A DNA stretch of 64,000 nt, taken from positions 19,338,702 to 19,402,701 of the forward strand of contig CM055094.1 of assembly GCA_029204225.1 (NCBI GenBank), in the 5' to 3' direction. Each line of letters starts with the position of its first letter. The first letter of the stretch is position 1. Made by a program: the position numbers and the translations under genes. The notes beneath the pieces were generated by a model. It was not told the DNA's origin and ran no database searches. It was given only the letters and a program-made list of their open reading frames with translations. Below are positions 926 through 29,300 of this stretch, in pieces. Origin of the DNA: Diphasiastrum complanatum. Lineage: Eukaryota; Streptophyta; Lycopodiopsida; Lycopodiales; Lycopodiaceae.

Positions 926-1110
926 TGTCCCTTCGTGTGAATATTTTCTAGATCCAAACATCTAGTGTGTGGCTGTTAGGCTAGAGATAGCATGATATAT
1001 TAATCTCAACATCCATTGGAGCAAGCTTCCGATCCACTTGAACACAAAACTTACAAGACTATTTGCTTCATGATGTAAATGTGAATCCAACTTATCAACC
1101 ATTACATATA
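926..1110. repeat. Copia-associated flank, LTR-like
   Basis: Segment with the core CATCTAGTGTGTGGCT and GATAGCATGATATATTAA. Copies occur at 4943, 25800 and 29525, and inverted at 48530 and 59540. At 48.5-49.1 kb and 3.2-5.2 kb it sits on the 5' side of copia gag, so it may be LTR or leader. No TG..CA boundary or primer binding site could be fixed. Confidence 0.4.
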
Positions 1111-2610: not shown

Positions 2611-2713
2611 TCCTAAGCCACATAGAGTTCCAACTTCCTCTTTTGATCAGTGGCTATCAGAGCCCATTTTGATTGCATATTGCTTATAACCCCACCGACA
2701 GATTTTTCAGTTC

Positions 2714-3222: not shown

Positions 3223-3239
3223 CCACTATTCTCACCTTG

Positions 3240-4942: not shown

Positions 4943-5240
4943 TGTCCCTTTTTGTGAATATTTTCTGGATCCAAACATCTAGTGTGTGGCTATTAGGCTA
5001 GAGATAGCATGATATATTAATCTCAACATCAATTGGAGCGAGCTTCCGATCCACTTGACATGAAATTTATAAGACTATATGCTTCATGATGTAAATGTGA
5101 ATCCAACTTATCAACAATGTGATTCCCTAGTGCACAATGTATCACTATCATCACGTGGCAGAAAGTGATTCACTTTTGTGCATATGTTCCATAGAGATGT
5201 GAGACACTTTACCTACCATAGGCTTGAAAAAATTGGAAGG
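4943..5240. repeat. Copia-associated flank, LTR-like
   Basis: A longer version of the segment at 926. It extends through GTGCACAATGTATCACTATC and the CACGTGGCAGAAAGTGATTC stretch. It is duplicated at 29525-29830 and inverted at 48530 and 59540. It lies 5' of the inverted copia gag at 3240-4632. Confidence 0.45.
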
Positions 5241-5456
5241 TAAAGATAGGGATCTACCTTCCTTTTGATTGATTGATTTAGTGGTGATCTATTATTTGCT
5301 ACGACCATGCTTGATTACTCCTTCGCATCCTTGGACACCATCTACATACATCCACCATGGATCCAGAGTGCCATCATCATCCATTTTCAAAAACCCTAAG
5401 CTGCCGAGATCTGCTACAATACACAAAAATCGTCACATCTAGCACGAGCCAAGTGC

Positions 5457-5830
5457 TGAGGGGTAGTGCTACTGGAGCTTGTCAAAACGACACAATCAAC
5501 ACCGATTTGGGTTGAAAGCTCTCTACTAGTACGTTATCGCGAAGAAACATCATCGTTTGCACATCCTATCAGAGCGACATTGCTCCAAATTTTTCCACAA
5601 ATTTCTAGTCTCCATACACTGCCGAGCAATACTCTACATACACTGCTCATAGAGCCGAGCCCCCATACTCTGCAATCACCGTGGACCGAGCCGAGCGTCC
5701 ATACTATGCATTCACTGTGGACCAAGTTGAGCGTCGATACTCTGCATACAAAGTTGACTGAGCCGAGTCCATCAAAAGTCGACTGATCCGAAGCCCTCCA
5801 CAGTCGATCGAGCTGAGAATCCACTTGTAA
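5457..5830 (+). repeat. Block M, fused to gypsy
   Basis: Minisatellite block as at 2111, but cut after GAGAATCCACTTGT and joined to gypsy DNA. The identical junction occurs at 8542, 31192 and (inverted) 63890, so one ancestral recombination was later amplified. Confidence 0.7.
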
Positions 5831-5831
5831 A

Positions 5832-6178
5832 TAGATTTTAAAAACCATACTATGGTATTTAAAGATAAGTTTGACCAGATAGTCTCTATTTATGGGGAGA
5901 CTAATGTACTCCCGTCATCGATGGTTTGCTCGGCGGAAGTTATGGAACAACTACATGATTCTAAGTATGAGCTTTTTCATCTTGTTTTGACATCTCATAT
6001 GCATTGTGATGTGAATGATGATGTGAATGTGTTAACATGCTTTAACACCAAAAATTAGCATCAAGAACAACTTTTAATGCAAGATTTAAAACAAGAGTTC
6101 AATGATGTTTTTCCTAAATAGCTAAGATTTTCTGAGGTACATACTTCTAATTATATTGCAGTCCGTTGTTAGCACATA
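5832..6178 (+). pseudogene. Ty3-gypsy protease-RT linker fragment
   Basis: The frame NHTMVFKDKFDQIVSIYGET, a stop after CFNTKN, then QEFNDVFPK correspond to the end of the retropepsin region and the DVFPEEL-type linker that precedes reverse transcriptase in plant Ty3-gypsy Pol. The longer copy at 11796-12800 contains the protease itself. In-frame stops and loss of the reverse transcriptase make it non-functional. Confidence 0.75.
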
Positions 6179-6498
6179 ATCAAATTTTTCTGAAATGAAA
6201 TCTTTGAAATGTTTTAGAAAAGAGCAAGAACATAAAGATAGATTTTCAATTTCAAAATTGCAGAAAACATCAAACAGAAAGTACTATTCACTTTTGATGT
6301 TAGGTAAGTATGACCAAGCAAACACAATATCATGGAAGGACTTGTGTATATAAGGCCAAAGATCTGTAATAAAATACAAGTGTAAAAGTGTCTTACATGA
6401 ACGGTCTCAAATATTCTATTATAGTAGCGTAAATGTAAAAATATCTTTGTCTTGTCCTTGTGCGTGCTGAGTTGTAGTCGATCCACCGTATTCCTAGT

Positions 6499-6865
6499 GA
6501 GAGTTCTTCTATGCAGATCCTCAACATCCTGCGAGCCAGTTAATCCCTGTAAAAGTTTAGTCTTTTAGCCGGTAAGTCTTCTTTTGCACCACTCCCTTGT
6601 CCTTTCTTTCCTTTATATCATGTATACTTCTTTCTTTTTCCCATATTTTGTCCAGAAACCACCGAACTAGGGTTGTTTAGGTTGAAAGAACCATGCCTTT
6701 CATTTGAGTTTTGGAAGAATTTATCTTGGACAGCGAAAAAATATGGTCTTTTGAGGAGGCGTTCAATCTCTCTGATGTTTTCAGCATCTCCTAAGTTGGC
6801 AAGGAGTTTAGCAGAAGGGTTTACAACAAATCAATCATGTGCTGGTGTAAAAAGAGAAAAGTAGG
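6499..6865 (+). pseudogene. Spliced-looking 63-aa exon family
   Basis: A plant-like intron can be drawn on the plus strand: donor CCG|GTAAGTC at 6572, pyrimidine-rich interior, acceptor TTTTGTCCAG at 6655 (84 bases). The downstream frame PETTELGLFRLKEP continues through FEFWKNLSWTAKK and SASPKLARSLAEGF to AGVKREK and a stop. Further in-frame homology (AIHLILEECTREEFTKIVHH) lies past two stops. Copies at 9385, 32034 and 62873 keep the frame open; 13283 is degraded. The minus strand is also partly open, so direction is not certain. No domain recognised. Confidence 0.45.
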
Positions 6866-7500
6866 TGTGACTTGACAACATCTCTGGCGAGCTTGTGTAG
6901 CCAAAGAAAAAAGCCATTCATCTGATTTTGGAAGAATGCACTAGGGAAGAATTTACTAAGATTGTTCATCACGAAACACGATGACCCAAAAAAAAAAATG
7001 ACATGGAGACCCATTTTTGTTTTGTCGCTTTTTTTTTTAATTTTATAAAAAAAATATCCATATTTAAAATGCTTCAAATAAAGATATTGTAATGCTAAAA
7101 AAAATGTTGTATTTCGCAAGAAAATTAATCAACCTACTAAAATTTTGTTAATAGATTTTTGTTAATAATTGCAAATTAGCTTATTTGAAATAATAATACT
7201 ATTCAAAATAAAATCATTGGACACAACCATTAGAAAAACTTAAAAAAACCTTTTTGCTTATTAAAACAAAAGTTTTCAATGTTGTTTTAAAAATTTTAAA
7301 AGTGTTTTAAATTACAATTCTTGTATCAAGGAAAATATTTTTTAAATTATGACAAAATTTTAATCAGTATTTAAATCTTTACTTATATTTAAACATTAAA
7401 TGATTGCAAATGAAATTATTTCTACAAACTTCTTATATAAACACAATGAAAAATTAAAATATTAAGAAACTTCCGGAAAATTTAATACTCCCGGAAATCA
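6866..7500. other. AT-rich non-coding stretch
   Basis: Very AT-rich, with A and T runs and no long frame. The same sequence recurs at 9720-10330, 13640-13975, and inverted at 40730-41040 and 62060-62780, always next to the gypsy/63-aa block. It is probably the non-coding tail of that element. Confidence 0.6.
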
Positions 7501-9577: not shown

Positions 9578-10714
9578 TGTGACTTGACAACATCTCTGGC
9601 GAGCTTGTGTAGCCAAAGAAAAAAGCCATTCATCTGATTTTGGAAGAATGCACTAGGGAAGAATTTACTAAGATTGTTCATCATGAAACACGATTACCCA
9701 AAAAAAAGAAATGACATGGAGACCCATTTTTTTTTAATTTTATAAAAAAAATATCCATATTTAAAATGCTTCAAATAAAGATATTGTAATGTTAAAAAAA
9801 ATGTTGTATTTTGCAAGAAAATTAATCAACCTACTAAAATTTTGTTAATAGATTTTTGTTAATAATTGCAAATTAGCTTATATGAAATAATAATACTATT
9901 CAAAATAAAATCATTGGACACAACCATTAGAATAACTAAAAAAAACCTTTTTGCTTATTAAAACAAAAGTTTTCAATGTTTTTTAAAAATTTTAAAAGTG
10001 TTTTAAATTACAATTCTTGTATCAAGGAAAATATTTTTTAAATTATGACAAAATTTTAATCAGTATTTAAATCTTTACTTATATTTAAACATTAAATGAT
10101 TGCAAATGAAATTATTTCTACAAACTTCTTATATAAACACAACGAAAAATTAAAATATTAAAAACTTGACAGTTCGTTGCAATTTTTGTTTTGCTAATAT
10201 TTAAATCATGAAAAAACTGCTAAATCTATATTTTTAATACAAACAAATTTAAAAACATTAAATTAATCAAAAAGATTTCCATACACAATATTTCAAGAAA
10301 TATAAACGCAATTGTTTCTAAAATAAAAGAGAATTTATTACTCCCGGAAATCATCAAGATCATTTACATTTTTTGTTTTTTTGAAGGAGCCATTGCAGTG
10401 TCAATTGGCACCTCTTCCCCAATTTCCTTGACAATTGTAACCAGATTTATCCTGAACTAGGACATCAGCAAACTCCCCTTTATCACCCACTTTTCCACTA
10501 GTAGGAGGTTGGGGTTCTTTTTGATAAAAATACAGCAAAATAAATCCATTTGATTCTAGAAATGATGGAGAAAGCACCTACTTAAAATCCAAACAAGTTC
10601 TAGAAGCTAGATTACTAATCAATGTATTGATTCCTAGTTTATCTTGGCTTGAACTCTATGAATTATCTCCAAAACTTTTCACACATGTGGATGTACGGCT
10701 TGCTGCTGCCTGCA
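9578..10714. other. AT-rich tail of tandem unit 2
   Basis: No gene seen. It contains the AT-rich stretch and the minus-strand VPIDT remnant described at 7501. It keeps about 130 bases (near 10160-10330) missing from the first unit, and these are also present at about 62110-62280. Confidence 0.55.
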
Positions 10715-11316
10715 TCCAATGATTTTAAATGGGTTTCGAAAAATACAGGTTAATATGAATGGAGTACTGTAGACCGCAAGAATACCTTATGCATTTGGAA
10801 TTTCTATTTGATAGACAATTGCATTATCAGACTTGGGGATCATACTTGGCGATAGGTTGGGGGAATACCAATGGGTTTTTCATATTCACCAATGTCTTGT
10901 AATTGGTACCGTTCTTTTTTTAAATTGCAGTTTATTAAAAGGCTTGCAAGATTAGGGAAAATTAAATTTATAAAAAATATTCGTTCAGGTACATTGACGA
11001 TATATGCTTTATCAATAATCATACGGTTGGACATTTCCCAGACAAGACTCAACCAAGAACACCTGACAATCCTTTTTGGATCTATCCCCTGGAATACCTT
11101 GAGATAGACGGAAACGACAACACATGTAATTTGGTGAACTTTCCGAATATTACAATTACCTTTAACCCAATTACCGGTTGTACACATCTGTCCAAATATG
11201 ATAAAAGGGGAGACCTTCCTTTTCTCTTTTTGCAATATATACACCTTGCCTCATATAGACCCGTGTTTAACTCATATAATAGATGTGTGGTAACTTGGGG
11301 TAGCTTGATATGTATC
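10715..11316 (+). pseudogene. Penelope-like reverse transcriptase fragment, decayed
   Basis: Homologous to the better copy at 42890-43550. Pieces of reverse transcriptase are readable in several frames: LGDHTWR, then after a stop IPMGFSYSPMSCNWY, then FIKRLARLGKIKF, a damaged catalytic region (YALSIIIRLD where the other copy has FRYIDDICFINN), then TITFNPITGCTHLSKYDKR and LPFLFLQYIH. The last part, a K(Y/P)-type strand followed by a YRPVFNSYN-like stretch, fits the C-terminal side of PLE reverse transcriptases. It starts abruptly at the tandem-repeat breakpoint, so the 5' part was lost. Confidence 0.7.
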
Positions 11317-11795
11317 TAGGCAACTAATAAAACAACAACACACCTCTGGATGGCTTCACAAGCTTCTCTAACTCATTCTTATGATACTATCATTATGTCT
11401 AACTTTCCAGATACTAGATGCAAGAGTATTTGACAGATTCCTAATTCTTTACTCTCCAAGTGTTGTTTGTAGCTCATCGTAGATGCTTTGAGAATAATAT
11501 TACTAGTTATATTAATTGGGGGGGGGGGGGGGGATTTTGGATTTTTTGCTCTTGAATAGGGATTTTGGAAGTTCCTTTATTGCATTCAGGTTTGCCATTA
11601 CTTTTTCCCTATTCACTTTTTTGGGTTAAGGCAATTGAAAGCCTTAAAAAAAAAAGCAATTTTTGTTGAGTACTTTGTAGACCTAGCAACCGTATCCTTT
11701 TAGAGGTGTATGCTATTTTTTTCCATTTGAAAATGGCTTCTAATAATCACTTAAGGGTCACTTGATTGTGAATTGGCACACTGGCAATTCATAGT
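11317..11795. other. Repeat flank with poly-G tract
   Basis: No gene. It contains the GTAACTTGGGGTAGCTTGAT segment and a 16-G tract at 11518-11533 directly after AGTTATATTAATT. The inverted arm has the matching 16-C tract at 42643-42658. Confidence 0.6.
11518..11533. repeat. Poly-G tract (16 G)
   Basis: Homopolymer at a boundary shared with 22784, 42643 and 54404, always beside the TTAATATAAC / CTCAAAGCATCTA segment. Confidence 0.9.
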
Positions 11796-12800
11796 ATGGA
11801 TTGTCAGCCGATTACCAAAAGGAGTGCAAATGGAATGTCCTCCATATTGAAAGATGCTATCCGACTTGTTAAAGCCTACGATAGCACCGTGATTGCCTCA
11901 CAGAAGAGTATGCACAGCCAATCAGCCCAAAAGCCTAAGAATGAAAAGCCAAAAAATAATAAGATAAAAAATCTATTTTTTGATGAATTAGAAGCTACTG
12001 CTTGCCAACAAACTTGGGCATCATGCCAAACAGAGATCCGAGAGGGAAAATAAATCATCAAGTTTCATGGCGATGGATTTACCGACAGGTAAATTGAATG
12101 TTGATTTGTTAAATGGTTGTGAATATACTTCTAACTTCAGTACACTTTCATTCAAGTCTAATCAATGGTTTCAAGTTAAAGGCAATATTCTAGGGAAAGA
12201 CATAAGTATAATGGTTGATTTTGGAGGTACTCACAACTTTTTGAATGTGCGGCCTGTATAGAAGCTTCGAGTGCCCACCATGGCCAATGATCAACATTAT
12301 CTGGTCCTCTAGCCTCAGGGTCAGACACAGAAGTTTGGGATGTGAAAGTCCCTACTTTGGAGGTTCGGATGCAAGATCATGTTGAGCGGCTCGACTTCCA
12401 TGTTATGAATCTTGATAGAACTTATGTAATCCTAGGATATGAATGGTTTTTTGATAAATCAGATTCGTTGAAAATAGATTTTTAAAACCATACTATTGTA
12501 TTTAAAGATAAGTTTGACCAGATAGTCTCTATTTATGGGGAGACTAATGTACTCCCATCACCGATGGTTTCCTTTGCGGAAGTTATGGAAAAACTACATA
12601 ATTCTAAGTATGAGCTTTTTTATCTTGTTTTGAAATCTCGTATGCATTGTGATGTGAATGTGTTAACATGCTTTAACACCAAAAATTAGCATCAAGAACA
12701 GCTTTTAATGCAAGATTTAAAACAAGAGTTCAATGATGTTTTTCCTAAATAGCTAAGATTTTTTGAGGTACATACTTCTAATTATATTGCAGTCCGTTGT
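11796..12800 (+). pseudogene. Ty3-gypsy gag-protease remnant
   Basis: The first frame (MDCQPITKRSANGMSS to WASCQTEIREGK) resembles the linker between gag and protease. After a frame change, the protease reads ISIMVDFGGTHNFLNVRPV. Plant gypsy proteases normally have a DSGATHNF-type active site, so the catalytic Ser is replaced by Phe and Ala by Gly. The later part (MQDHVERLDFHVMNLDRTYV, then GYEWFFDKSDSL) is the typical C-terminal half of the gypsy retropepsin domain, followed by VFKDKFDQ and the DVFPK linker. Several stops and the active-site change show it is dead. Inverted partner at 41350-42410. Confidence 0.8.
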
Positions 12801-13640
12801 TAGAACATAATCAAATTTTTCTGAAATGAAATCTTTGAAATGTTTTAGGAAAGAACAAGAACATAAAGATAGATTTTCAATTTCAAAATTGCAGAAAACA
12901 TCAAACAGAAAGTACCATTCACTTTTGATGTTAGGTAAGTATGACCAAGCAAACACAATATTATGGAAGGACTTGTGTATATAAGGCCAAAGATCTGTAA
13001 TAAAATACAAGTGTAAAAGTGTCTTACATGAACGGTCTCAAACATTCTATTATAGTAGCGTAAATGCAAAAATATCTTTGTCTTGTCCTTGCGCGTGCTG
13101 AGCTGTAGTCGATCCACCGTATTCCTAGTGAGAGTTCTTCTATGCAGATCCTCGTCATCCTGCAAGCTAGTTAATACCTGTAAAAGTTCAGTCTTTTAGC
13201 CAGTAAGTCTTCTTTTGCACCACTGCCTTGTCCATCCTTTCCTTTATATCATGTATACTTCTTTCTTTTTCCCATATTTTGTCCAGAAACCACCAAACTA
13301 GGGTTGTTTAGGTTGAAAGAACCAGGCCTTTCATTTGAGTTTTGGAAGAATTTATCTTGGACAATGATAAAACGTGGTCTTTTGAGGAGGCGTTGAATCT
13401 CTCTGATGTTTTCATCATCTCCTAAGTTGGCAAGGAGTTTAGCAGAAGGGTTTGCAGCAAATCAATCATGTGCTGGCGTAAAAAGAGAAAAGTATGTGTG
13501 ACTTGACAACATCTCTGGCGAGCTTGTGTAGCCAAAGAAAAAAGCCATTCATCTAATTTTGGAAGGATGGACCAAGGAAGAATTTACTAAGATTGTTCAT
13601 CATGAAACACGATGATCCCAAAAAAAGGAAATGACATGGA
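12801..13640 (+). pseudogene. Gypsy-linked tail with degraded 63-aa exon
   Basis: Continues the gypsy block. The 63-aa frame near 13310-13500 is damaged (MIKRGLLRRR, then a stop, then ISLMFSSSPKLARSL). The predicted intron donor is CCA|GTAAGTC. Flanking sequence matches 6180-6990. Confidence 0.5.
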
Positions 13641-14603: not shown

Positions 14604-15559
14604 ATGTTACATCCTAACCAAAATTTTGTTTATATTATCCCTATTTCTAGAGCTGACCTGAATACATTTGGCTTCCCTAGGGGAGCAAACACTGTCAATA
14701 GGACCCTCAAAAAGATTGAATCCACAACATACTTCAAATACATAGATCCCTCAGTGGACAAATGGAAAAACAAAGATGGTTACCTTATTGAGGTCATAAA
14801 TGATAAGCCCTTAGCTGCTCCGTGCGCCTATCTAACGAAATATACATAGTGCTATAGGTCCAAGATCACGTGTATCCCCATGAAACTATTCCACATGATG
14901 GCTGATTCTAAACTACATGATCAGAACCTTTATGACTCTGCCTACTTTGCTTCCAACTGCCTCCATGACTATATCAAGAACAAGCAAACCTCCAATTATT
15001 GGGCTATCTTCTGGTAGATGTCACTTTGTAGCAGTTGAGCCACTGACCTCGATTTTGAGACCACTTGATGCTAGCAGATAAAAGCTTGGGAGACTCCCTC
15101 AGAACCAGCCAAGAATACCAACTCTACTTCCAAGCCTATTGCAACAGATTCCACGCAAGCGACTTCTCAAAAGAGAAAGAGTTCTTTCTCTCCACAAGGG
15201 CCAACTGTAAAGCACCAAACGGTCGACCTAGTGAAGCTTACATCGAGAAAGACACCCACGTACTCTATGTCACAGACGAAGGATCGATACAAGCGAAGCG
15301 TCATGCTTCATCAGATGAAACAGACTCAAATGATGTGGAGTTTACATTCAAGGAGTTCCATGGCCCAAAAGGGCTGTCTAAGAAATGCCATGTAAGAGAG
15401 AGAAAATTGTCGAATTTTAAAACTCCGACCGAGTTTTTGGTCTGCCCGCACAACTCCGATGACTTGACCTCACTAGTAACGTATGTAGTTAACTGGAAGT
15501 TGGGTAGCCGCAACGCGTGGGGTCCATACTTCAAGATTCTATTTTCTACCATTAACTAA
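14604..15559 (+). pseudogene. Unknown family U1, longest copy
   Basis: The most complete U1 copy, about 318 codons with breaks. Frame 1 runs from an ATG to APCAYLTKYT, where a CAG codon seen in other copies has become TAG. The frame continues as IPMKLFHMMADSK and ends at a one-base deletion near 14993; CAG to TAG also occurs at VTL(Q)QLS. From 15065 it is open to the end: ADKSLGDSLRTSQEYQLYF, FHASDFSKEKEF, GRPSEAYIEKDTHVLYVTD, then a Ser/Asp-rich stretch (RHASSDETDSND) and WGPYFKILFSTIN. I recognise no family; a structural or gag-like element protein is possible. Confidence 0.6.
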
Positions 15560-15679
15560 CATGACTTCTCATGTAAATGTAAATCGTATTGCACATCAAA
15601 GTTTTCTTTCCATCTACTAAAGTATTCACATCAAAGGAAAACAGTCTTATCGATCTGCAAATCATGGCAAGAAACTTTG

Positions 15680-15945
15680 AATATTTTGGATCACAATGAG
15701 CGCCAATGTGAATCTAAATTTTTGAAACTCAGAAAATACGGAAGTGTGTTGGATCAAATGAAGCGGCAAGGTTATCTCAAACTTTTGCAATTCAAAAATT
15801 TGCAATTTCAACACACATCTATTGAAAAAATATTTTGCTTATTTTGCTCATAACTGCAAAGCTTTGATTTTCCATATAAAGCAAGAAACATGGAGTGTGA
15901 TGGATCAAAAAGAGTGCCAAGGTCATTTCCAACTTTTCCAATTAT
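15680..15945. repeat. Three diverged 40-bp repeats
   Basis: Repeats starting near 15687, 15747 and 15897 share GAAAC(A/T)..GGATCAAA, GGCAAGGT and an AACTTTT end. They lie between U1 and U2. The inverted counterparts at about 45200-45430 and 58160-58400 keep all three. Confidence 0.6.
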
Positions 15946-16033
15946 TTTTTTTTTATAATTAAGATGAGTTTTAATAGCTTACAAGATATATAACAAGTGG
16001 GTTTTCTACTAGATTAATCTATCGATTATTAAG

Positions 16034-16342
16034 ATGTCTAAATATCATCTCCATATTGATCTTCCCACAGAATATGCTCCACTGTCGAGAAAAAATCTGA
16101 AAGGTTCCACCTTACCAGCTCACCAAAGGACGAAAGACAGGAAATATTGTGATCTATGGGTTGATGGAAGTTTGTATCCAATCGATCCAAGCTCAATGCA
16201 ACATCCAAATTTTAGATCGGTCACACAACTCATACTGTTTTTGTGTGAAGGACACGATAGTCTATTGGGTTATTGTGAAAGATTGAAAAGTTATGGCATA
16301 AGTTATTCAATGAAAAAATCCACTATTTGGAAAATATGTTGA
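16034..16342 (+). pseudogene. Unknown family U2, part a
   Basis: An ATG-started frame of 102 codons: MSKYHLHIDLPTEYAPLSRK, then CDLWVDGSLYPIDPSSM, then FLCEGHDSLLGYCERLKSYG. It ends at a TGA, after which an adjacent frame (NGLLTDYREKENFF) looks like its continuation. It is absent from the inverted arm at 38-39 kb because of a deletion; remnants lie near 45010-45090 and 57980-58060. No family recognised. Confidence 0.4.
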
Positions 16343-16382
16343 ATGGTTTGCTTACTGACTACCGAGAAAAAGAAAATTTTTT

Positions 16383-16565
16383 TTGCAAACAAAAGAAGAA
16401 AATAAAATCTTGAAGATAGATAATTATCGTTTGCAAGATATTATATTAAACCTCAACCAAGAAACTGACAATATGAAACTAATTGTACAAACATTGTGTA
16501 CCTCATATTGTCAAATAAATGTAGAAGTAAACACATTTCGGAAGAAAATACTGAACAATAAGTGA
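16383..16565 (+). pseudogene. U2 part b, predicted coiled coil
   Basis: Open for 60 codons, KEENKILKIDNYRLQDIILN onward, with hydrophobic residues at 3/4 spacing and many charged residues, so a coiled coil is likely. It follows part a closely and probably belongs to the same broken protein. Function unknown. Confidence 0.35.
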
Positions 16566-16789
16566 AAAAGAGTTATTTTAAAAAGTAGTGACGAGCTCTC
16601 AACAAGTGGGGGTCAACGGAAAAAAGGAATATATGCTTTCAAGTAGGATCAATGGTTGTGAATTGTTTTTTTCTAAATCTTATTTTTATTTTGCGGAGCA
16701 GCTTTAGTCACCAATGAAAATCCGAAAGACAAGGACATGATTGGAAAGTCTTTGAGTGCATACTTACAGCCAAGTCAACGACGAGTCTA

Positions 16790-17290
16790 CTTGGAAATCA
16801 ACGATATTCTCGAATCGTGCCCAAGATTGCAGAGGCCCTTATGGGCGAAGTCGGCAAGATCATTGACCGAAAATTGATACAAGGAGCATGTGATTATTCT
16901 GGTATTAGCAGGGATGCATATGACACAATGTTTAAAATTATCAAAGAGGCATTTGGACAAGTACATATAAAACAATTTCCTATTCCCCGGCCCTTTCAAA
17001 TCAAATTAGAGGGATGTGTTAAACAGGGGTTTGCAAAACATCATTGGTATTCCTTACCATATCAATGAAATTTATAACTCAAAACATGGCACTTTGTCAT
17101 ATGATTCTACCAACAATATGTTTGTAGATCTGAATCATTTATAGAGATTTATTGTAATGTTTTATGGAATCACAAACGAAATTGAAAGGGTTAGTGTTAC
17201 ACTTATGAATGGAACATTAAGCAATACGATAAACTCGGAGAGTCTTAATTTCAGTGTGCAGTCCGAAAATAATATTTGGTGGTTGGCAGC
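16790..17290 (+). pseudogene. U2 part c, frameshifted
   Basis: First frame: PKIAEALMGEVGKIIDRKLI, then DYSGISRDAYDTMFKIIKEA, then HIKQFPIPRPF, up to KQGFAKHH. The reading then appears to move to another frame (GIPYHINEIYNSKHGTLSYD, then a stop, then RFIVMFYGITNEIERVSVTL) ending near NNIWWLAAFQ. Amino acid composition is protein-like in both parts. No family recognised. Confidence 0.4.
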
Positions 17291-17379
17291 TTTCCAGGTT
17301 TAAATCTATTCTATTGAGTACTAGCAACTAATTCATCTCGAGAATTAATGGTTTTGTGTTTTAAGCTAATATTGTTTTG

Positions 17380-17629
17380 TTATTATAGGTCTGAGTTCAA
17401 TTCTCTTCAAATAGTTCATGATTTTGTGTTTCAAACAGGTTTTAAAGAAGATCATGAAATTCTATTTTGGATTTTTAGTAAAACAGAATATCCAGAGATA
17501 ATTAAGAATCATATGAGCGACACACCACTCAATGTTCCTAGAATAGGTGATTTTAAGGTGGAATGGTATTTGGTTCACACACCAAGAGCTACAGGGAGTG
17601 AAAATCCAAAACTTACAGAAATGTTTTAA
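17380..17629 (+). pseudogene. U2 part d, C-terminal exon
   Basis: Reads FQTGFKEDHEILFWIFSKTE, then NVPRIGDFKVEWYLVHTPRA, and ends TEMF. A TTATTATAG or TTTCAAACAG acceptor upstream suggests an intron of roughly 100-130 bases between parts c and d, but I could not make both exon ends agree in frame. This piece is repeated, inverted, at 38872, 44780 and 57740, each time beside a G-box array. Confidence 0.45.
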
Positions 17630-17724
17630 CTGATCAAACAACATTTATTTAGCTAAAACCAATAAAACCCAAGCCGTACACTCGTCGATCCAACAACGGA
17701 TCAGATCTATTGCGCGTAATACAA

Positions 17725-18105
17725 CCGTCCACACGTGTGAGACCACACGTGCTACAATACACGTCAATTTGCCATTCGGCCGCATGCCCAAACGTGCGAG
17801 CTAACACGTGCCAGAACACACGTCACCAAACCATTCGACCACATGGCGACATGTGCAAGTTTCACACGTGCGGATACAGAAGTGTGGTCCCACACGTCAG
17901 TTACTGATTGGGCCACGTGACCACACGTGCGAGCCGATACGTGTAAGAACACATGTCGCTGATCCATTCGGCCACATGTCCCCACATGGGATCCCACACG
18001 TGTTGATCCAGAGGTGCAGTTTCACACATGCGTATACAAATGTGTGGTTCCACATGTCAGCTATTGATTGGGCCACATGTCGATGGGATTCACACGTGCC
18101 AACTT
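17725..18105 (+). promoter_or_regulatory. G-box (CACGTG) array, promoter of H3-like gene
   Basis: Eight exact CACGTG hexamers in under 400 bases, plus many one-mismatch forms (CACATG, AACGTG). They lie in a larger imperfect repeat of about 160 bases (TTCACACGTGCGGATAC at 17861 and TTCACACATGCGTATAC at 18021). CACGTG is the plant G-box bound by bZIP and bHLH factors (established knowledge). The array ends at a TATA box. Inverted copies lie at 38400, 44290 and 57250. Confidence 0.7.
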
Positions 18106-18112
18106 TTTTCTC

Positions 18113-18120
18113 CTATATAA
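18113..18120 (+). promoter_or_regulatory. TATA box (CTATATAA)
   Basis: A good plant TATA box at the 3' end of the G-box array, 329 bases before the H3-like ATG. The stretch just downstream, GTCCATTCCCAAGGATTGTA, is kept in all four promoter copies; after it they diverge, close to the expected start of transcription. Confidence 0.65.
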
Positions 18121-18198
18121 GTCCATTCCCAAGGATTGTATAGGTTTTCTCGTAATTTGCTGTCGTGTTTGATTGCTTCCATACGACCTACATTCGTG

Positions 18199-18444
18199 AT
18201 ATCGCCAGCATGCGAGCGACCTCGTCCCCAAGCCTATTCCTTACACCCTCTCATGTCGTAGCGATATCAGCCTGACTTTCCCAGTATCGCCATCATGCAA
18301 GCCCCTGCCTCTCCCCGCCTGTCTCTGCCACTCTCTCGCGTTGTAGTGATATCACCCTTAGAGTTCTCAGTGTCGCCATTACGCGAGATAATTTAGCTCT
18401 CTCTTCTGCTGTATCTCTGTCCTCGCATGGTATAGATATCCGGC
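18199..18444 (+). repeat. Three 86-bp repeats in the 5' leader
   Basis: ATCGCC motifs at 18201, 18286 and 18372 and GATATC motifs at 18263, 18348 and 18435 recur with 85-87 base spacing. The third unit runs into the ATG. The inverted copy (38060-38330) keeps the arrangement. The role is unknown; it would be transcribed as leader RNA. Confidence 0.7.
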
Positions 18445-18448
18445 CTCA

Positions 18449-18907
18449 ATGGCTCGGACGAAGCAAACTGCTAGGCTTACCCATTTTGTTCAACCATCCC
18501 GTCCCCTGACATTTGAACCCATACGTGTGCAAAGACGCGGAAGACCTCGCCGTCCATGGTTGAGGGACATTAGGGCCTTACAGAGGTACACCAAACTTGT
18601 GATCCTGAAAGCAGCCTTGTACCGGGCTGTGAGGGAGGTTACACAAGATATGACCACGCATCTGCCCTATGCAGTGAGGTGGAATATCGCTGCATTGGAG
18701 GCCCTCCATATTGCATACGAGGACTTCCAGACAAAATTGTTTGAGGATTCGATGCAGTGTTCCATTTATGGCAAGAGGGTGACACTGATGCCCAAGGACA
18801 TGCTTCTTGTCATGAGGTTTCGAAACACCTATGATAGCGGTATGCCACATGGCAAATCATGCAGGCTTGAGGGTTGCCATGTGGCAAGCCATGTAGGCCT
18901 ACCATAA
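18449..18907 (+). CDS. Divergent histone H3, CENH3-like, intronless
   Basis: Residues 1-9 are exactly the H3 tail MARTKQTAR; residues 10-36 are unlike H3, with no K9/S10, K14 or K27 motif. The fold follows: alpha-N (WLRDIRALQRYTKLVI, 37-52), alpha-1 (YRAVREVTQDM, 58-68), loop 1 (TTHLPYAVRW, 69-78), alpha-2 (79-103) and LFEDSMQCSIYGKRVTLMPK (97-116), close to the H3 stretch containing LFED, CAIH and KRVTIMPKD. Loop 1 is four residues longer than in H3 and ends in Arg-Trp, as in plant CENH3. The last 26 residues run into the adjacent satellite. It has an ATG, TATA box and G-box array upstream. Canonical H3 is intronless but plant CENH3 genes have introns, so a retrocopy captured by a repeat is plausible. 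Expression cannot be judged from sequence. Confidence 0.85.
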   Translation: MARTKQTARLTHFVQPSRPLTFEPIRVQRRGRPRRPWLRDIRALQRYTKLVILKAALYRAVREVTQDMTTHLPYAVRWNIAALEALHIAYEDFQTKLFEDSMQCSIYGKRVTLMPKDMLLVMRFRNTYDSGMPHGKSCRLEGCHVASHVGLP

Positions 18908-19588
18908 CCTTGTATGTCAAGCCAACTAGGCCTTGTGCCACGTAGGCTTGAGTGGACCTAGAGATCTATATATATATATATATAGGTGGGCTCAAAAGTT
19001 GCCACTTGGCAAACCACACAGGCCTACCATAGGCTTGCGTGGCAGGCCACATAGGCATGGCATGTTTTTGATGCTTCCTACATAAGCATGTCGCAGGCTA
19101 CCACATAGGCTTGCCATAGGCTTGTGTGGCAAGCAAACCAGGCTCTGCCATGTAGGCTTGAGCAGAGCTAGAGAGAGAGAGCTGGGGCTCCCAAGTTGCC
19201 ATGTGGCAAGCCATGTAGGCATGTGATGAGATAAACCATAGGCTTGCGTGGCAGGCCACATAGGCATGGCATATTTTTGATGCTTCCCACGTAAGCATGT
19301 CGCAGGATACCACATAGGCTTGCCATAGGCTTGTGTGGAAAGCCAACCAAGCTCTGCCATGTAGGCTTGAGTGGAGCTAGAGAGAGAGAGCTGGGCCTCC
19401 CAAGTTGCCATGAGGCAAGTCATGTAGGCCTATCATAGGCTTGCGTGGTAGGTCATATAGGCATGACATAGGCTTGATGCTAGTATGTTCATGCTGGTAT
19501 GTTGCAGTCTGCCATATAGGCTTGACATAGGCTTGTGTGGCAAGCCAACGAAGCTATACCACGTGGGTTTGCCATGTAGGCTTGAGTG

Positions 19589-19598
<10 letters not shown>
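18860..19598. repeat. GGCTTGCC-type degenerate satellite
   Basis: Arrays of short units such as GGCTTGCGTGGCAGGCCACA and GCCATGTGGCAAGCCATGTA, with many inverted TTGCC/GGCAA pairs, so each unit can fold on itself. It directly follows the H3-like frame and supplies its last codons. Copies at 20000, 37150, 43780 and 56402. Confidence 0.75.

Positions 19599-19623
<25 letters not shown>
19599..19623. repeat. (AG)n microsatellite, short allele
   Basis: About 12 AG units. The tandem partner at 20722 has about 76 units, a large expansion within one duplication. Confidence 0.9.
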
Positions 19624-19999
19624 GAGTCACACATGAACTACTTCCCTGTGGTATGGCCTAGCATCAACGTTGAAAAAAATATCTGATGGAGATAAGAAGG
19701 GTCCCAAAAAATATCTGATGGAGATAAGAAGGGTCCTGAAAGCAGCCTTGTACCGAGCTGTGAGGGAGGTTACACAAGATATGACCACGCATCTGCCCTA
19801 TGCAGTGAGGTGGAATATCGCTGCATTGGAGGCCCTCCATATTGCATACGAGGACTTCCATACAAAATTGTTTGAGGATTCGATGCAGTGTTCCATTCAT
19901 GGCAAGAGGGTGACACTGATGCCCAAGGACAAGCGTCTTGTCATGAGGTTTCGAAACACCTATGACAGCGGTATGCCACATGGCAAATCATGCAGTCTT

Positions 20000-20876
<877 letters not shown>

Positions 20877-20926
20877 TGAGTGAGGAGTCACAATGAACTA
20901 CTTCCCTGTGGTATGGCCTAGCATCA

Positions 20927-21139
20927 ATGTTGAAAAAAATATCTGATGGAGATAAGAAGGGTCCCAAGCAAATTTCAAATGAGAATCTTGCAGAGAAAGT
21001 ATTGAAACCACAGTTCGCGAGGGATCCCAAAGAATCGAACTTGAGTGTACAAGCCCAACAAAAGCACATACACCAACTCACCACACATGGGAAGATCATT
21101 AAATTTGAATTTGAAGAAAAATCATTGAAGTGTTTGTAG
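20927..21139 (+). CDS. Lys-rich 70-aa frame, hypothetical
   Basis: ATG-started: MLKKISDGDKKGPKQISNEN, then AEKVLKPQFARDPKESN, then HQLTTHGKIIKFEFEEKS. Rich in Lys and Glu. Copies at 36829-37038 and 56058-56267 (both minus) keep the frame open with few replacements but have TTG where this one has ATG. It lies just after the satellite and microsatellite of the H3-like locus. No family recognised; it could be a chance frame in a repeat. Confidence 0.35.
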   Translation: MLKKISDGDKKGPKQISNENLAEKVLKPQFARDPKESNLSVQAQQKHIHQLTTHGKIIKFEFEEKSLKCL

Positions 21140-22480
21140 ATCGATGTTTAACAAAATCATATATATTATAATCTTCACACGTGTGGAATCAAGATTTACA
21201 AGAAAATCAACTTTCTACACATAGAAAACCAAGATAGAGAAAATCACATGAGATGGACATAAGAGATGAATTCTCCACAAAGAAAGAAACTTTGATGATT
21301 ATTTCTCCACTTAGGTACAACTATTTATAGCTTCCAAAATGTCATTTGGCCACTTGCCCCAAACTTGACCTAATTTGGAAACTTCTAGATACTTTATCAA
21401 ATACCTAGAAAATCTAGTCTAGATGCAATGTACCAAAATTAGCCAATTAGAATGGGTCCAAAATCGACCTCATCCACTGATCTACTTGCCAGAGGTAGTT
21501 AAACAACTATTTAGGCCCTTATTAACAAATATGAAACTAACTCGAAGTTGAGATTCATTTTGGCCTCCAAAATTGCCAAATGAAAAACCAAACTAGTTGA
21601 CAATTTTTCACACCATGTCCTCTAGACATCTCCATTGATGAATACAATTTATAAGTTTTTGAAAGCAATGTACCAAAATTTAGCCAATTAGAATGGGTCC
21701 AAACTCGACCTCATCCACTTATCTACTTGCCAGAGGTAGTTAAACCACTATTTAGGCCCTTATTAACAAATATGAAACTAACTCGAAGTTGAGATTCATT
21801 TTGGCCTCCAAAATTGCCAAATAAAAAACCAAACTACTTGACAATTTTTCACACCATGTCCTCTAGACATCTCCATTGATGAATACAATTTATAAGTTTT
21901 TGAAAGCAATTCCGAATGCAATCAGGGTCATGTTTTAGCTCAGTGATCTCTCTTTCACATTACAAAAGTTTTTAAAATACATCGTTCTAGGATTCGAGAA
22001 TGGATTTTGGAATGAATTATATTTCATTGAAGTTTGAACGAGCTTGGAAATTTGAAGATTGAATGAAGCTGTAATCTAGGATTTTCAAAACTCAAAGTTG
22101 TTCATGCAAATTAAGTCATTTTTGTTAATATATTAAAATGTTGTAATCTAGGGTTTCCAAAAACAAATTGAAAATTTGTTAAAAAAAATGCTTATTCCTT
22201 GTTACACGACTAAATAACATATAGTTAAAAAGCATATAATGAATCTATGCTATGTTCCAAACATATGCAAGCTACATTGCATTCATTCACACTTCACAAA
22301 TCATTGGAATTTGAATTTGAACGAAATCATTGAAATGAGTAGATCAATGTTTAAATGAAGCGATAAATATTATAATCTTCCCATTTAATTCAATTATATT
22401 TATATATTACTGGTGCATTAATAGGATAAAAACTCGTTATTATTATTTTCTTTGTTTCTATTGATTCAAGCAAGCACAGC
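21140..22480. other. Repeated non-coding region
   Basis: No gene. It contains the 239-bp tandem duplication and an AT-rich part (22080-22440). It is inverted at 54780-56040 and partly at 36456-36820. Confidence 0.6.
21427..21907. repeat. 239-bp tandem duplication
   Basis: CAATGTACCAAAATT starts units at 21426 and 21666; both contain CTACTTGCCAGAGGTAGTTA and CCATGTCCTCTAGACATCTC. Both units are also present in the inverted arm at about 55300-55790, so the doubling is older than the inverted duplication. Confidence 0.85.
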
Positions 22481-22484
22481 TCGT

Positions 22485-23240
22485 CTAGATGATGACCACA
22501 ATGCCTCTAAGGAGAAATAGTTTTTCATTTTTTTTTAACTTTGATTTTTCTTCAAATTCAAATTTAATGATCTTCCCATGTGTGGTGAGTTGGTGTCTGC
22601 ACTTGAGTTGGGCTTGTACACTCAAGTTTGATTCTTTGCAATCCTCCCAAATTAATATAACCAGTAAGATTATTCTCAAAGCATGTACTATGAGCTAAAA
22701 ACAACACTTGGAGAGTAAAGAGTTAAGAATATGTCAAACACTTTTACACCTAGTATTTGGCAAGATCGGATTCTTTGCGATAACCCCCCCCCCCCCAATT
22801 CTTAATATAACTTCTCAAAGCATCTAGTATGAGCTACAAACAACACTTGGTAAGTCTTAAGACTTGGAGAGTAAAGAGTATGCATTTGTCAAATACTTTT
22901 ACACCTAGCATTTGGCAAGTTAGACGCAATGGTAGTAATTATAAGAATGAGTTAGACAAGCTTGTGAAGCCATCTAGAGGTGATTTGTTGTTTAGTTGCC
23001 TAGCTACATATCAAGCTACCCCAAGTTACCAAACAGTTTACTATTATTTTGAGTGACAACCATGAAGCTATCATGATTTGAAATGACATCAATATATTAA
23101 GCTACTCCCAAGTTTACCCTTTCCCAGGAAGCTTCTCTCTTGAAACTATAGCAAAAAGCTCTTATTCAAAGGAACAATCAAGGGTCGAGTACTTACCATA
23201 CGAGATGAAGACCAACAAGTAGGGCAAGGAAAGAAGATGT
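22485..23240. other. Repeat flank with two related segments and poly-C
   Basis: Two diverged copies of the CTCAAAGCAT / AGCTACAAACAACACTTGG segment lie either side of a 13-C tract (22784-22796). A piece of the 70-aa family (KESNLSVQAQ) reads on the minus strand at 22500-22650. No intact gene. Inverted at 53960-54700. Confidence 0.55.
22784..22796. repeat. Poly-C tract (13 C)
   Basis: Homopolymer next to AATTCTTAATATAAC, the same boundary as at 11518, 42643 and 54404. Confidence 0.9.
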
Positions 23241-23245
23241 ACGGT

Positions 23246-23458
23246 TTACTTTGCTATGTGCTTGGAGGTATGCTGAGCATGCTTGGAATATGAAGAACAG
23301 GTGTTTTCCAAAAATATTAGTAGTCTCACAAAAAGGCTTGGAGTAACATTAGAATTTGGAAGTGGTGCACCTACTTTGGATGGATGATCACTAACAAACA
23401 ATTTCTGTCTAGTCCTTTTGCGGTGATATGTTCCCTCTTGTCGATATGATATTTTCAT
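23246..23458 (-). CDS. Conserved 70-aa frame, hypothetical
   Basis: ATG-started, MKISYRQEGTYHRKRTRQKL to SSYSKHAQHTSKHIAK. Three copies (also 33099 and 53738, plus) remain open with three or four replacements between them. Basic, with no recognised domain. It lies downstream of the membrane-protein family in the same orientation. It could be a chance frame in a young repeat. Confidence 0.35.
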   Translation of the reverse strand: MKISYRQEGTYHRKRTRQKLFVSDHPSKVGAPLPNSNVTPSLFVRLLIFLENTCSSYSKHAQHTSKHIAK

Positions 23459-23658
23459 TGTGTCTAAATATTTTTTGAACAGAATATGTGTAACCTAATT
23501 ATTGTTGATTTTGATTTAATGAGCATTCAATGTTCATTTAATACATTAAATCAAATATCAACGATGAGAACATATATATATACACAATGAGAAGAAGGTA
23601 TATCTAGATCATAGATTATGAACTAAAGTGGACATTTCAAAAGCAGTGGAGAGATAGA

Positions 23659-25461
<1,803 letters not shown>

Positions 25462-25559
25462 TCTCTAGGTAACTTGAATAAGCCCGCCCTCCATTCATTT
25501 CAAAGTCAAGAATAATCCATGCCCCTTTCACACTCATAGCCATCTATACTATACACCAA

Positions 25560-25573
25560 CCCCCCCCCCCCCC
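25560..25573. repeat. Poly-C tract (14 C)
   Basis: Counterpart of the 17-C tract at 682. Confidence 0.9.
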
Positions 25574-26985
25574 TTACAACAATCAAATGCTACTTGTCCA
25601 AGAATAGGAGAAAGATAAGCATGAGAAAAGGTCACAATTGTATCACATTTTAGTTGCCCAAGACAAAGGTAGTGCTTGAGAAATTAAGGCAATAGGAAAG
25701 GCACATTCACAGGTTTGTTTGAAGGGAGCTTTTCATGTCGCATAAGCACAAAGAGATGTGACGAAATAAAAGGTGAAAGCAGATTAATATTGATGTGTGA
25801 TGTCCCTTTGTGTGAATATTTTCAGGATCCAAACATCTAGTGTGTGGATGTTAGGCTAGAGATAGCATGATATATTAATCTCAACATCCATTGGAGCGAG
25901 CTTCCGATCCACTTGAACACAAAACTTACAAGACTATTTGCTTCATGATGTAAATGTGAATCCAACTTATCAACCATTACAGAAAATTTGAGCACAAAAG
26001 GGGCCTTTCAAAAACATACCTTTTATTTTTTTTCTCAAAAGCTTCTTCCACATGGTCCAATCAAAACACTCAAATTTGAAATCTACGTAACGTAGCTCCT
26101 TCAAATTGATTTTCTTTTCTTTTTAAAAGAACTGTAATTTTGCGTCGGGGCAGCCCGTAAATAAGCCATTTTATGTGTAGTATAGTATGCAACTCAGTAA
26201 AAAAACAGTGTAACTTTTGAACAGCAACTCAAATTGAGACGATTAGGTTGCCATTAGAAAGCCCTCGACGAGAGCTTTTTCAACGACACCAACATGACCC
26301 AGTTCCGAGCTATGGTGAAGAGGTCATGGCCAGTAAGGGAGTAGCATTATGGTGCATTTAAGAGTAAAGGATCAAGCAAATACTTATAAAACTAGTATAT
26401 GGCAAGTTAGACACAATGATAAATTCATGAGAATAAGTTAGTGAAGCTCAAAAAGTTATTTGGAGTGAGTTCTTGCCGAGTCCCAATTTGTTACCTTGCT
26501 ATTTGTCAACTTGCCCCAAGATAAGGTGAAAAAAACCTTTTAATATTACGAATGACAACCACGAAGCTATCATAGTTTCAATCAACATAGATATAATTAA
26601 ACAACAAAAATCATCACATACATGGAAACATTACAAAAAATCACAATATCACGCTTTACTGCCATGCTGCCATGGATGCTTTTTAGGAAATGAAAACAAA
26701 CTCTGATGGGAGAAGATTTGATGCTGGCACTTCCTTCCTCAGGCATGGAAATGAAATTCAGAAGCCTTGAAAAGCTATAACTTCAAAGGATCGATTTTCC
26801 ATCTTTTAGTGGCGATCTATCATTTGATATGACAGTGCTTGATTACTCCTTCGCATCCTTGGACACCATCTACATACATCCACCACGGATCCGGAGCGCC
26901 ATTATCATCCATTTTCAAAAACCCTAAGCTACCAAGATCTGCTACATTACACAAAAATCGTCACATCTAGCACAAGCCAAATACT
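25574..26985. other. Repeated non-coding flank
   Basis: Direct copy of 700-2110, with the copia-flank segment at about 25800-25990. No gene. Confidence 0.6.
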
Positions 26986-26987
26986 GA

Positions 26988-27483
26988 GGGGTAGTGCTCC
27001 TGAAACTTGTCAAAATCCCACATTCAACACCGATTTGGGTTTAAAGCTCGCTACTAGTACGTTACTACGACGAAACATCATCGTTTTCACATCCTATCAG
27101 AACGACATTTCTCCAAATTTTTCCACAAATTTCTAGTCTCCATACACTGCCGAGCAATATTCTACATACACTACTCATAGAGCCGAGCCCCCATACTTTG
27201 CATTCACTATGGACCGAGCTGAGTGTCCATACTCTGCATACAAAGTTGACTGAGCCGAGTCCATCCGAAGACGACCGATTCGAAGCCCTCCACAGTCGAC
27301 CGAGCCGAGACTCCACTTGTCTGTTACCAGAGCCGAACCTTCAACAAAGTTATCAGCCGAGTCTAGAACCTATCTGCCACAACATCTTCCAGTTCTGATG
27401 ACCCAACTCAAGACAGAATTGACATCACCATGGAAAGCCTCGATATCTATGAGATGAACACTTGGTACGAGGAGGCACACTAG
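26988..27483 (+). repeat. Block M
   Basis: Minisatellite block with fewer 36-bp units than the copy at 46560. It leads into U1 as at 2111. Confidence 0.6.
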
Positions 27484-27587
27484 TTCCTGAGCCACATAGA
27501 GTTCTAACTTCCTCTTTTGATCAGTGGCTATCAGAACCCATTTCGATTGCATATTGCTTATAACCCCACCGACAAATTTTCCAGTTC

Positions 27588-28090
27588 ATGTTACCTCCTA
27601 ACCAAAATTTTGTCTATATTATCCCTATTTCTGGAGCTGACCTCAATACATTTGGCTTCCCTAGGGGGCCGAACACAATTAGTAGGACCCTCAAACAAAT
27701 TGAATCCATAGCATACTTCAAATACATAGACCCCTCAGCGGACAAATGGAAAAAAAGATGGTTACCGTATTGAGGTCATAAATGATAAGCCCTTAGTTGC
27801 TCCATGTGCCTATCTAGCAAAATATACACAGCGCTATAGGTCCAAGATCACGCGTATCCCCATGAAACTATTCCACATGATGGTTGATTCTAGACTACAC
27901 AATGAGAACCTTTATGATTGGGCCCAGTTTGCTTCCAACTGCCTCCATGACTATATCAAGAACAAGCAAACATCCACGTTATTAGGCTATCTTCTGATAG
28001 ATGTCACTTTGCAGCAGTTGAGCCACCGACCTCGAGCTTGAGACCAGTTGATAGTAGCAGATAAAAGCGACTCCCTCAGAACCAGCGATC
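27588..28090 (+). pseudogene. Unknown family U1, truncated
   Basis: ATG-started MLPPNQNFVYIIPISGADLN. A frameshift lies in the A-run near 27748, and the frame resumes through APCAYLAKYTQRYRSK and LYDWAQFASNCLHDY to RAW. It is cut at the same AACCAGC|GATCCACTATTC join to copia as the copy at 2714. Confidence 0.6.
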
Positions 28091-28091
28091 C

Positions 28092-29300
28092 ACTATTCTG
28101 ACCTTGAGTGTGACGCTTCTGTTGTTGCTACTACACTTGATTCTTGACCTTGGAATAGTCTTTCTTCTTGGTGTACAGGGCCATGGATTTGTTTTTGATG
28201 GACAGGCCGTTTGTCTTTCTGCGCATTTCTTCCTGAAGAAGATGACCGATCACCTTTTGAAGAGTGAGGCCGGGTTGTGTGGAGATCATCACCCCTTTAG
28301 CAATGATCTTGCCATCCTTGTTGATCTTACATGTATTTGTGGTAAACTCCACAATCAAACCATTGTCAAGCAATTGCCCTACACTAAACAAGTTCTTAGT
28401 GATACTGAAAATGTAAAGCACTCCATCAATCTTGATCTTCCTTGAAGATCCCAAGCAAAAAGGTATGGATCCTATTCCTTCTATCTTATAAGCATAATTA
28501 TTTGCTATACAAATTCACGTGATAGGTCCTTCCTAGGTAGATAAGGTTGAAAAATACTCCCTCTTACTTGTCATGTGGGAGGTAGCCCCACTATCTATCC
28601 ACCAAGGGTCCTCACCTCTTATGCTTGAAGATGAGAAACTTGACATCATGACGAAATCTTCATGAGACCTATCCTCTTCCTCTTGACCAAGGTTTTCTTG
28701 ACTTTGAGTTTGTTTCTTCTTGAAGCACTCCGAGGCATAGTGCCCTGTCTTGCCAAAAAAGTAGCATTTGATCTTTGACTTATCCTTCTTTGGCTTGCTC
28801 GAGCTTTGACTTGGTTCTTCTTGAATGCAACGCCTTTGCCTTTGTATTTTCTCTTGATCTTGATGAAAAGAGCCTTGTCATGTCCATCCTTGACTTGATG
28901 TGAGTTCTCCTACTCTCCTCGACCATGAGGAATCCTTGGAGATCTTCAAGTGAAGGCAACTTGCCCATGATTGCATAGCCTTGCACCAAGTTAGCGAAAT
29001 CCATACTTAAACCATTCAAGATTGGTTGAACAAGTTCACTTTCCTTAATGGAATCTCCTATGTAAGCAAGCTCTTTGTTTAAGTCCTTGACTCTCAGCAC
29101 ATATGGATTTGATTCTTCAAGGATATCAACCTTGAAGTATTCTTGGATTCATATATCTTTTGAAGAGTTTCCCATGATTCTTGAGCCAAGATGCAAGCAC
29201 CTACCTCCTTAAGAAGCTCATGAGCCACATTCATTTTATACAATGGAGAGCAACCTTCCACCTCCTTTTGTATTTTGTACGAGATAAGTTGAATCATCAT
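28092..29300 (-). pseudogene. Ty1-copia gag-protease remnant, chimeric
   Basis: Same architecture and same in-frame switch (about 28292) as the copy at 3240. Gag piece MNVAHELLKEVGACILAQES, then FANLVQGYAIMGKLPSLEDL. In the zinc knuckle the second Cys is now Phe (CYFFGKTGHYASEC). The 5' gag part (LNASNYSIWK) is missing: the sequence joins other leader DNA near 29280. Confidence 0.8.

Follow-up and report, generated by a model that had tools for sequence, protein, structure and literature searches.

An H3-family histone carried by an amplifying mobile element in the lycophyte Diphasiastrum complanatum

Introduction

Can a mobile element carry a histone of its own, and if so, is the histone gene a functional variant or a captured copy in decay? 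The question is raised by an open reading frame in a 64,000-nucleotide stretch of the genome of Diphasiastrum complanatum (Lycopodiaceae, lycophyte), which corresponds to C3:19338702-19402701 and is called the window hereafter. The original prediction described this frame as an intact intronless gene, embedded in repeats, which combines the tail start of histone H3 with features of the centromeric variant CENH3, and it proposed a profile search and an analysis of selection across the genomic copies as checks. In this study the window copy was compared with its relatives in the same genome, where two repeat families were distinguished: family 1 (F1), to which the element of the window belongs, and family 2 (F2).

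Results

The open reading frame at 18449-18907 of the window (+ strand; P0001) is uninterrupted over 152 codons and its N-terminus is MARTKQTAR. In the proposed profile search it gave an H3-family match, PF00125 (Histone) in Pfam with an E-value of 1.3e-19, by which chance similarity is excluded; among solved structures its top match was an H3 variant (2.6e-18), and the matches were mostly H3 (best 60 of 175 distinct sequences, E up to 0.1). The histone fold is claimed here from sequence profiles, since the AlphaFold2 models were both poor (pLDDT 60.6 and 64.3) and Foldseek returned no match to them at E <= 0.001. At this level it was confirmed that the frame encodes an H3-family histone.

The individual residues also agreed with the prediction. 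The first nine are those of canonical H3, and the K4 region is kept in its A1-R8 context; Leu stands at the position of K9 and no K14- or K27-type motif was seen by eye, so that of the canonical modifiable tail (K4, K9, K14, K27) only K4 is left. With 21 residues, the segment between alpha1 and alpha2 exceeds that of H3 (17) and that of Arabidopsis CENH3 (19), and it includes Arg-Trp; loop 1 is indeed four residues longer than in H3, and the combination of an H3-type tail start with a CENH3-like loop 1 and Trp holds. LFEDSMQCSIYGKRVTLMPK was found as well.

It was the intactness of the gene that had to be revised: the frame is uninterrupted, but the full gene has about 357 codons and the window holds only a shortened copy of it. 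Dispersed F1 copies encode a protein of ~357 aa, consisting of an H3-like tail start, a histone domain, a linker with a PPRKKRKQAQPKRSQPK-type basic stretch followed by a Pro/Ser stretch, and a C-terminal domain. A full-length copy matches the histone profile at 1.8e-22, and its ~130-aa C-terminal domain matched no Pfam or NCBIfam family, the best solved structure being at E 0.59. Among 28 full-length-type F1 copies K4 is present in 27 and Leu replaces K9 in 27. H113, R116 and D123 of H3 are contact residues; their equivalents were retained in 26, 26 and 27 of the 28 copies, respectively, and by eye also in F2.

When the 357-aa protein was searched in its own genome, at least 117 matches were obtained from 114 scored of 9459 loose candidates, where 117 is a lower bound and 9459 does not represent a copy number. 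The matches listed were distributed on 21 of the 23 contigs C1-C23 and on smaller contigs, with none on C13 or C20. A profile was also run against 5.8 billion proteins, with 3884 candidates scored and sensitivity restricted to sequences that have 5-residue words in common with it; no second fusion of this type was found, and two weaker matches to the H3 domain were P0015 (407 aa, source ena) and P0016 (oomycete). In P0015 the H3 domain is flanked on both sides by long extensions, and this protein may itself be an element-borne histone; in the tree built with F1 only it was placed on a long branch together with the element histone, and in the tree with F2 it was not. A viral origin of the element histone was rejected, since no relatives of the F1 fusion protein or of the transposase-like piece were found among viral contigs.

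In order to define the mobile unit, 22 kb were read at each of two F1 loci, and 6.4 kb at six more. The F1 element is a unit of ~9.6 kb with short inverted termini like CATTAGAGGAGTT; it contains the H3-like gene and further open reading frames on both strands. The copy on C23 (39741236-39750876, 9641 bp) lies between CATTACAGGAGTTCC and GCTCAAAACTCCTCTAATG and interrupts a Copia gene: joining of the flanks restores a single open frame, ...ELWHRRLDHHNYKSMLSMIKEAKAIGLPN..., with no duplicated base. The nesting of the element in the Copia gene (C23:39736200-39758600) provides both the nesting order and an empty-site test. A target-site duplication of 8 bp is a feature of hAT elements; none was present at the C23 site and none was seen at the flanks of a second copy (L038/L063), which concerns two sites only. 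One part of an F1 frame, ...GDLKSLKCMFNVSHGTNSKHSCLYC..., resembles the Asp/Cys-Cys part of DDE transposases, and three element frames of 191-230 aa had no Pfam or NCBIfam match above the cut-off to hAT or to any other transposase family. These three transposase-like frames may be exons of one diverged gene, possibly of a diverged hAT. The dispersed copies, the element termini and the insertion into Copia bear out the prediction that an H3-family histone is carried by an amplifying repeat.

The window copy could be aligned to this unit in pieces. Its similarity to the full-length and dispersed copies stops at 18834-18838, about residue 130, thus 18449-18838 (+) is the portion homologous to the H3-like domain of the element protein (residues 1-130), and the final 22 residues (131-152; 18839-18907, +) are read from tandem-repeat DNA; repeat DNA at other places in the window, for example at 56881-56816, codes for similar peptides. 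Where the 3' half of gene and element would be expected there are instead ~209-bp tandem repeats, at 18962-19623 (+). Dispersed loci that match the whole span of 17573-18838 are 84-88% identical to it at the DNA level. The upstream region 17573-18448 (+) is common to full elements and maps to the C23 concatenated coordinates from 10200 onward, while to the left of this position the match is to coordinates 7377 and lower; position 17573 is therefore the junction of an internal deletion, with ~2.8 kb of the element absent. The left element part at 15337-17573 (+), with the remnant of a putative transposase gene, is 92-96% identical to C23 element coordinates 5030-7377, and a left terminal-inverted-repeat copy, CATTCAAGGAGTTCC, lies at 15345-15359 (+). 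Since 15337-17573 and 17573-18838 match stretches of the element that are 2.8 kb apart, the window copy is internally deleted and also truncated at its 3' end. A TATA-box-like TATATAAG at 18114-18121 (+) precedes the ATG by 335 nt. TATATAA is found within 420 nt upstream of the gene in 28 of 30 related loci from the local clusters described below; six of eight dispersed copies have it in the same context at -300 to -335, the exceptions being L038, with another TATATAA at -350, and L035, with none.

Two further H3-like copies are present in the window, a 5'-truncated domain at 19733-20035 (+) within a duplication of 1131-bp offset, and a copy at 37611-38055 (-) frameshifted near 37735. Large duplications, direct as well as inverted, make the window as a whole a mosaic; for example, 465-4435 pairs with 25339-29279 (95%), 10710-13028 with 43426-41119, and 20534-23744 with 56589-53450. 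Long frames in a duplicated block (51801-53396, +, 531 aa; 23659-25461, -, 322/268 aa) had no Pfam match above the cut-off. At 60252-60899 (+) Pfam detected a Copia-type Pol_BBD (6.8e-20) and a gag-pre-integrase remnant.

The search of the genome with the window histone gave at least 150 scored matches of 7535 loose candidates. Dense clusters of the truncated histone are located at C3:18.5-21.8 Mb, C3:29.9-30.2 Mb and C14:49.4-49.9 Mb; all matches above 245 bits among the 150 scored fall in these regions, therefore the truncated form has been amplified locally. Could the window frame be a functional lycophyte histone gene, centromeric or variant? An open 152-codon frame behind a TATA-like box might suggest this, as might the absence of stops from 22 of 30 cluster loci (selected for similarity) and the annotation of a related copy as a host gene, O6H91_14G014700. 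The latter encodes the one close relative found in a protein search, P0002, a Diphasiastrum complanatum 'hypothetical protein' 79% identical to the window protein; but locus L034 (C14:7055342-7056412) translates to P0002, and judging from this sequence O6H91_14G014700 is a stop-truncated copy of the F1 element gene. The number of genomic matches and the tandem-repeat end of the frame also argue against a host gene, and so does residue 107, aligned to H113 of H3, which is Tyr in the window copy alone and His in the other 29 of 30 cluster loci. We consider a host gene very improbable; the window frame is a truncated and locally amplified copy of a mobile-element gene, and probably a dead one.

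Whether the element makes use of its histone was addressed by the variants among the 28 full-length-type F1 copies (C-terminus of L037 masked). These copies had been drawn from lists ranked by similarity of the protein, and it is within this sample that singletons, which are mostly post-insertion changes, were contrasted with old variants. The ratio of amino acid-changing to silent variants was 248:97 for singletons and 42:52 for variants present in four or more copies (p 2e-6), with variants in two or three copies intermediate (84:40). The same depletion was seen in the H3 part (94:37 vs 21:25, p 0.0021) and in the non-histone rest (154:60 vs 21:27, p 0.0003). It persisted when methylation-type (CpG/CHG) transitions were removed, both in the H3 part (85:28 vs 3:10, p 0.0003) and in the rest (138:47 vs 9:13, p 0.0021). 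Restricted to transversions, the contrast was significant for the H3 part (49:15 vs 3:5, p 0.033) and not significant for the rest (68:16 vs 9:5, p 0.17). By region, the histone core (p 0.0034) and the C-terminal part (p 0.0017) reached significance; the tail (23:10 vs 9:8, p 0.35) and the linker (p 0.055) did not alone, and conservation of the tail is not above that of the core. The pairwise pN/pS of 0.34-0.37 was not used as main evidence, because the copies had been picked for similarity of their proteins and neutrality under the mutation spectrum would already give ~0.59-0.78.

As amino acid-changing variants are depleted among the old ones, the F1 protein was selected during the activity of the element, and it decays after insertion. 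It can be concluded that the full-length F1 gene shows purifying selection in active element lineages, hence it was used by the element. Decay is evident in the single copies: 21 of the 28 contain a stop and seven are stop-free, three have neither stop nor gap, and TAG accounts for 21 of the 32 stops. Both halves of the predicted alternative, functional variant or captured copy in decay, are consequently part of the picture, the first for active lineages and the second for single insertions. The proposed analysis of selection had a divided outcome, since the constraint on the full-length gene has no clear counterpart in the truncated form. In 27 cluster copies that are not near-identical, no difference was seen between singletons (37:19) and variants shared by at least two copies (29:21, p 0.43); against the class of four or more copies alone (6:10) the contrast was borderline (p 0.048), and these variants may be older than the truncation. 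The amplified truncated form displays no clear sign of selection or of use by the element.

These data also bear on passive transduplication, in which a single capture of a host transcript, from H3 or CENH3, would have been followed by hitchhiking without benefit to the element. The gene is intronless, most copies carry a stop, fungal precedents exist (PMC3538342, PMC6710886), and the behaviour of the window's truncated form fits this explanation. For the full-length gene it is contradicted by the depletion of amino acid changes among old variants, and also by the retention of the gene in two families whose shared frames are only ~28-44% identical; we regard it as improbable.

The second of these families came to light when the last 57 residues of Arabidopsis CENH3 were used as a query against the genome, a search that gave 150 scored matches of 4705 candidates. 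By identity and extent 24 of the 150 are apparent host H3 genes or fragments (three were fetched: L067, L068 and L070); from the other 126 five were fetched, and all five represent a distinct H3-like gene, L069 as a short piece. The remaining four F2 loci (L072-L075, at C16:35087200-35092600, C19:8101000-8106400, C8:36890400-36895800 and C17:36123000-36128400) contain an open frame of 318-394 aa with a long Pro-rich N-terminus and a C-terminal histone domain, and they are 93-99% identical to each other over 3.9-5.4 kb, that is, they form a repeat. No DNA similarity between F1 and F2 was detected in these genes, the single hit (434 bp) falling in a portion of L036 that has no match to the C23 element. 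At the protein level four F2 frames, representing at least three genes, match F1 frames: the histone with E-values down to 3e-22 (43-44% identity), an adjacent pair with 2e-15 each at best (30-39%), which may be exons of one gene, and a fourth frame with values down to 6e-9 (28-30%). In F1 as well as in F2 the histone gene has the adjacent pair on one side and the fourth frame on the other, with different relative orientations. Since F2 shares the histone and other frames with F1, the most plausible view of the histone is that of an old component of the core gene set of these elements. K9 and K27 motifs are absent in both families; mimicry of the H3 tail is not common to them, because the F2 proteins have no H3 tail start.

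The relation to CENH3 has to be considered separately. A protein derived from CENH3 might enter centromeric or other special nucleosomes and steer integration or retention of the element there. In favour of such a mimic are loop 1, four residues longer than in H3 with Arg-Trp at its end, as in proteins of the CENP-A type, and the dense truncated-form cluster at C3 18.5-21.8 Mb. The elongated loop and the Trp at the start of alpha2 are found in F1 but not in F2, where the alpha1-to-alpha2 segment has 17 residues by eye and no Trp. In the trees, built without a host CENH3 and with two CENH3 sequences not drawn from a database, the element histone formed its own clade on a long branch and did not group with CENH3. 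A clade of F1 with plant CENH3 was absent from the best tree (AU p 0.078), as was a clade of F1, F2 and plant CENH3 (AU p 0.41), but neither clade was rejected, which would allow such a mimic; F1 and F2, both on long branches, were weakly united (62/61), and neither was placed firmly with CENH3. Among the scored matches of the genome search with the Arabidopsis CENH3 C-terminus there were host-H3-like sequences and F2 and no certain host CENH3. In a protein search with Arabidopsis CENH3 the best 120 of 7812 proteins were mainly CENH3 of Brassicaceae and Cleomaceae and, from other organisms, proteins of the H3 type; none of the 120 came from a lycophyte. The F1 copies have no single chromosomal focus, the 81 of 117 matches that could be placed being scattered along the chromosomes (KS p 0.21). 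A CENH3 identity is thus not supported by the trees or by the distribution of the copies, CENH3 ancestry of the element histone is neither shown nor excluded by these comparisons, and we find a centromere-directed mimic unlikely.

Discussion

We consider it likely that the window frame comes from a gene of a high-copy, multi-gene DNA element and that the protein of this gene is an element-encoded histone with an anti-silencing or chromatin-accessory function. The protein would enter the nucleus and pair with host H4, an assembly with which the retained equivalents of H113, R116 and D123 would agree. Altered nucleosomes might then form on element DNA, guided or anchored by the extra domain, and they would be free of the marks of plant transposon silencing, since Leu replaces K9 and the K27 motif is missing. 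In F1 the K4 context would stay while the sites of the silencing marks are gone; the common denominator of F1 and F2 would be an H3 fold unable to take silencing marks and tied to extra domains. Our best guess is that such a chromatin protein protects or licenses the element DNA.

A histone fold could also serve the element outside host chromatin, by wrapping or bridging its DNA in the transposition complex. Membership of the gene in the set common to F1 and F2 would agree with such a structural role, as would purifying selection on both the histone and the C-terminal parts; on the other hand, the kept H3-H3' contact residues suggest a true H3-H4 type assembly, and we hold a purely structural function to be rather unlikely.

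If the proposed chromatin function is generalised, plants might harbour ancient multi-gene DNA elements with their own H3 in the core set, whose private nucleosomes, devoid of K9 and K27, escape silencing; we put this forward tentatively, as a possibility short of an even chance. If true, a histone would be known for the first time as a long-conserved working part of mobile elements and not as a fresh capture. Transposon silencing acts via histone H3 marks, and an H3 kept by an element without the silencing lysines would counter the host directly. A testable question is raised by this: are there parasite-encoded nucleosomes in host chromatin? There is also a warning for genome annotation, as at least one 'hypothetical protein' of a lycophyte is a fragment of an element gene.

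Within the H3 family, the F1 protein has the longer loop 1 and the Trp at the start of alpha2 in common with CENP-A/CENH3; unlike these, it is encoded by a high-copy, intronless gene, is fused to a C-terminal domain and lacks support in the trees. The VANC proteins of VANDAL elements are sequence-specific anti-silencing proteins that direct hypomethylation of related elements (PMC10398659, PMC5735166, PMC13317346). The likeness here would be by hypothesis, an element-encoded protein countering the silencing of host chromatin, and no sequence relation is claimed.

No plant DNA transposon bearing an H3 was found in the titles and abstracts of the literature outside subscription, and the word 'histone' is absent from the main text of a 2026 review of plant gene capture (PMC13317346). 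The nearest precedents are fungal. In Pyrenophora tritici-repentis a hAT transposon carries an H3L gene: as in F1, an H3-like gene lies with other open reading frames between the inverted termini of a DNA transposon, and the protein fully matches neither H3 nor CenH3 (PMC3538342). The fungal element has a hAT dimerisation domain, forms of 5.6 and 2.3 kb and 26 nearly identical copies (PMC3538342), whereas the plant element F1 is ~9.6 kb long, has no hAT match and, at its one solved site, no target-site duplication, its histone is fused to a C-terminal domain of no known family, and there are two diverged families and a signal of selection. In Pseudocercospora fijiensis and its relatives histone H3 was captured by hAT elements, passive capture being inferred in P. 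fijiensis, and hundreds of H3-like copies were spread by the DNA transposon; in that case a housekeeping H3 was captured and RIP inactivated all copies except the original (PMC6710886), in contrast to the diverged histone of F1 with its signs of selection within the element. The capture of H3 by hAT elements is thus known from fungi, and the elements of Diphasiastrum complanatum add a plant case with two diverged families and signs of selection.
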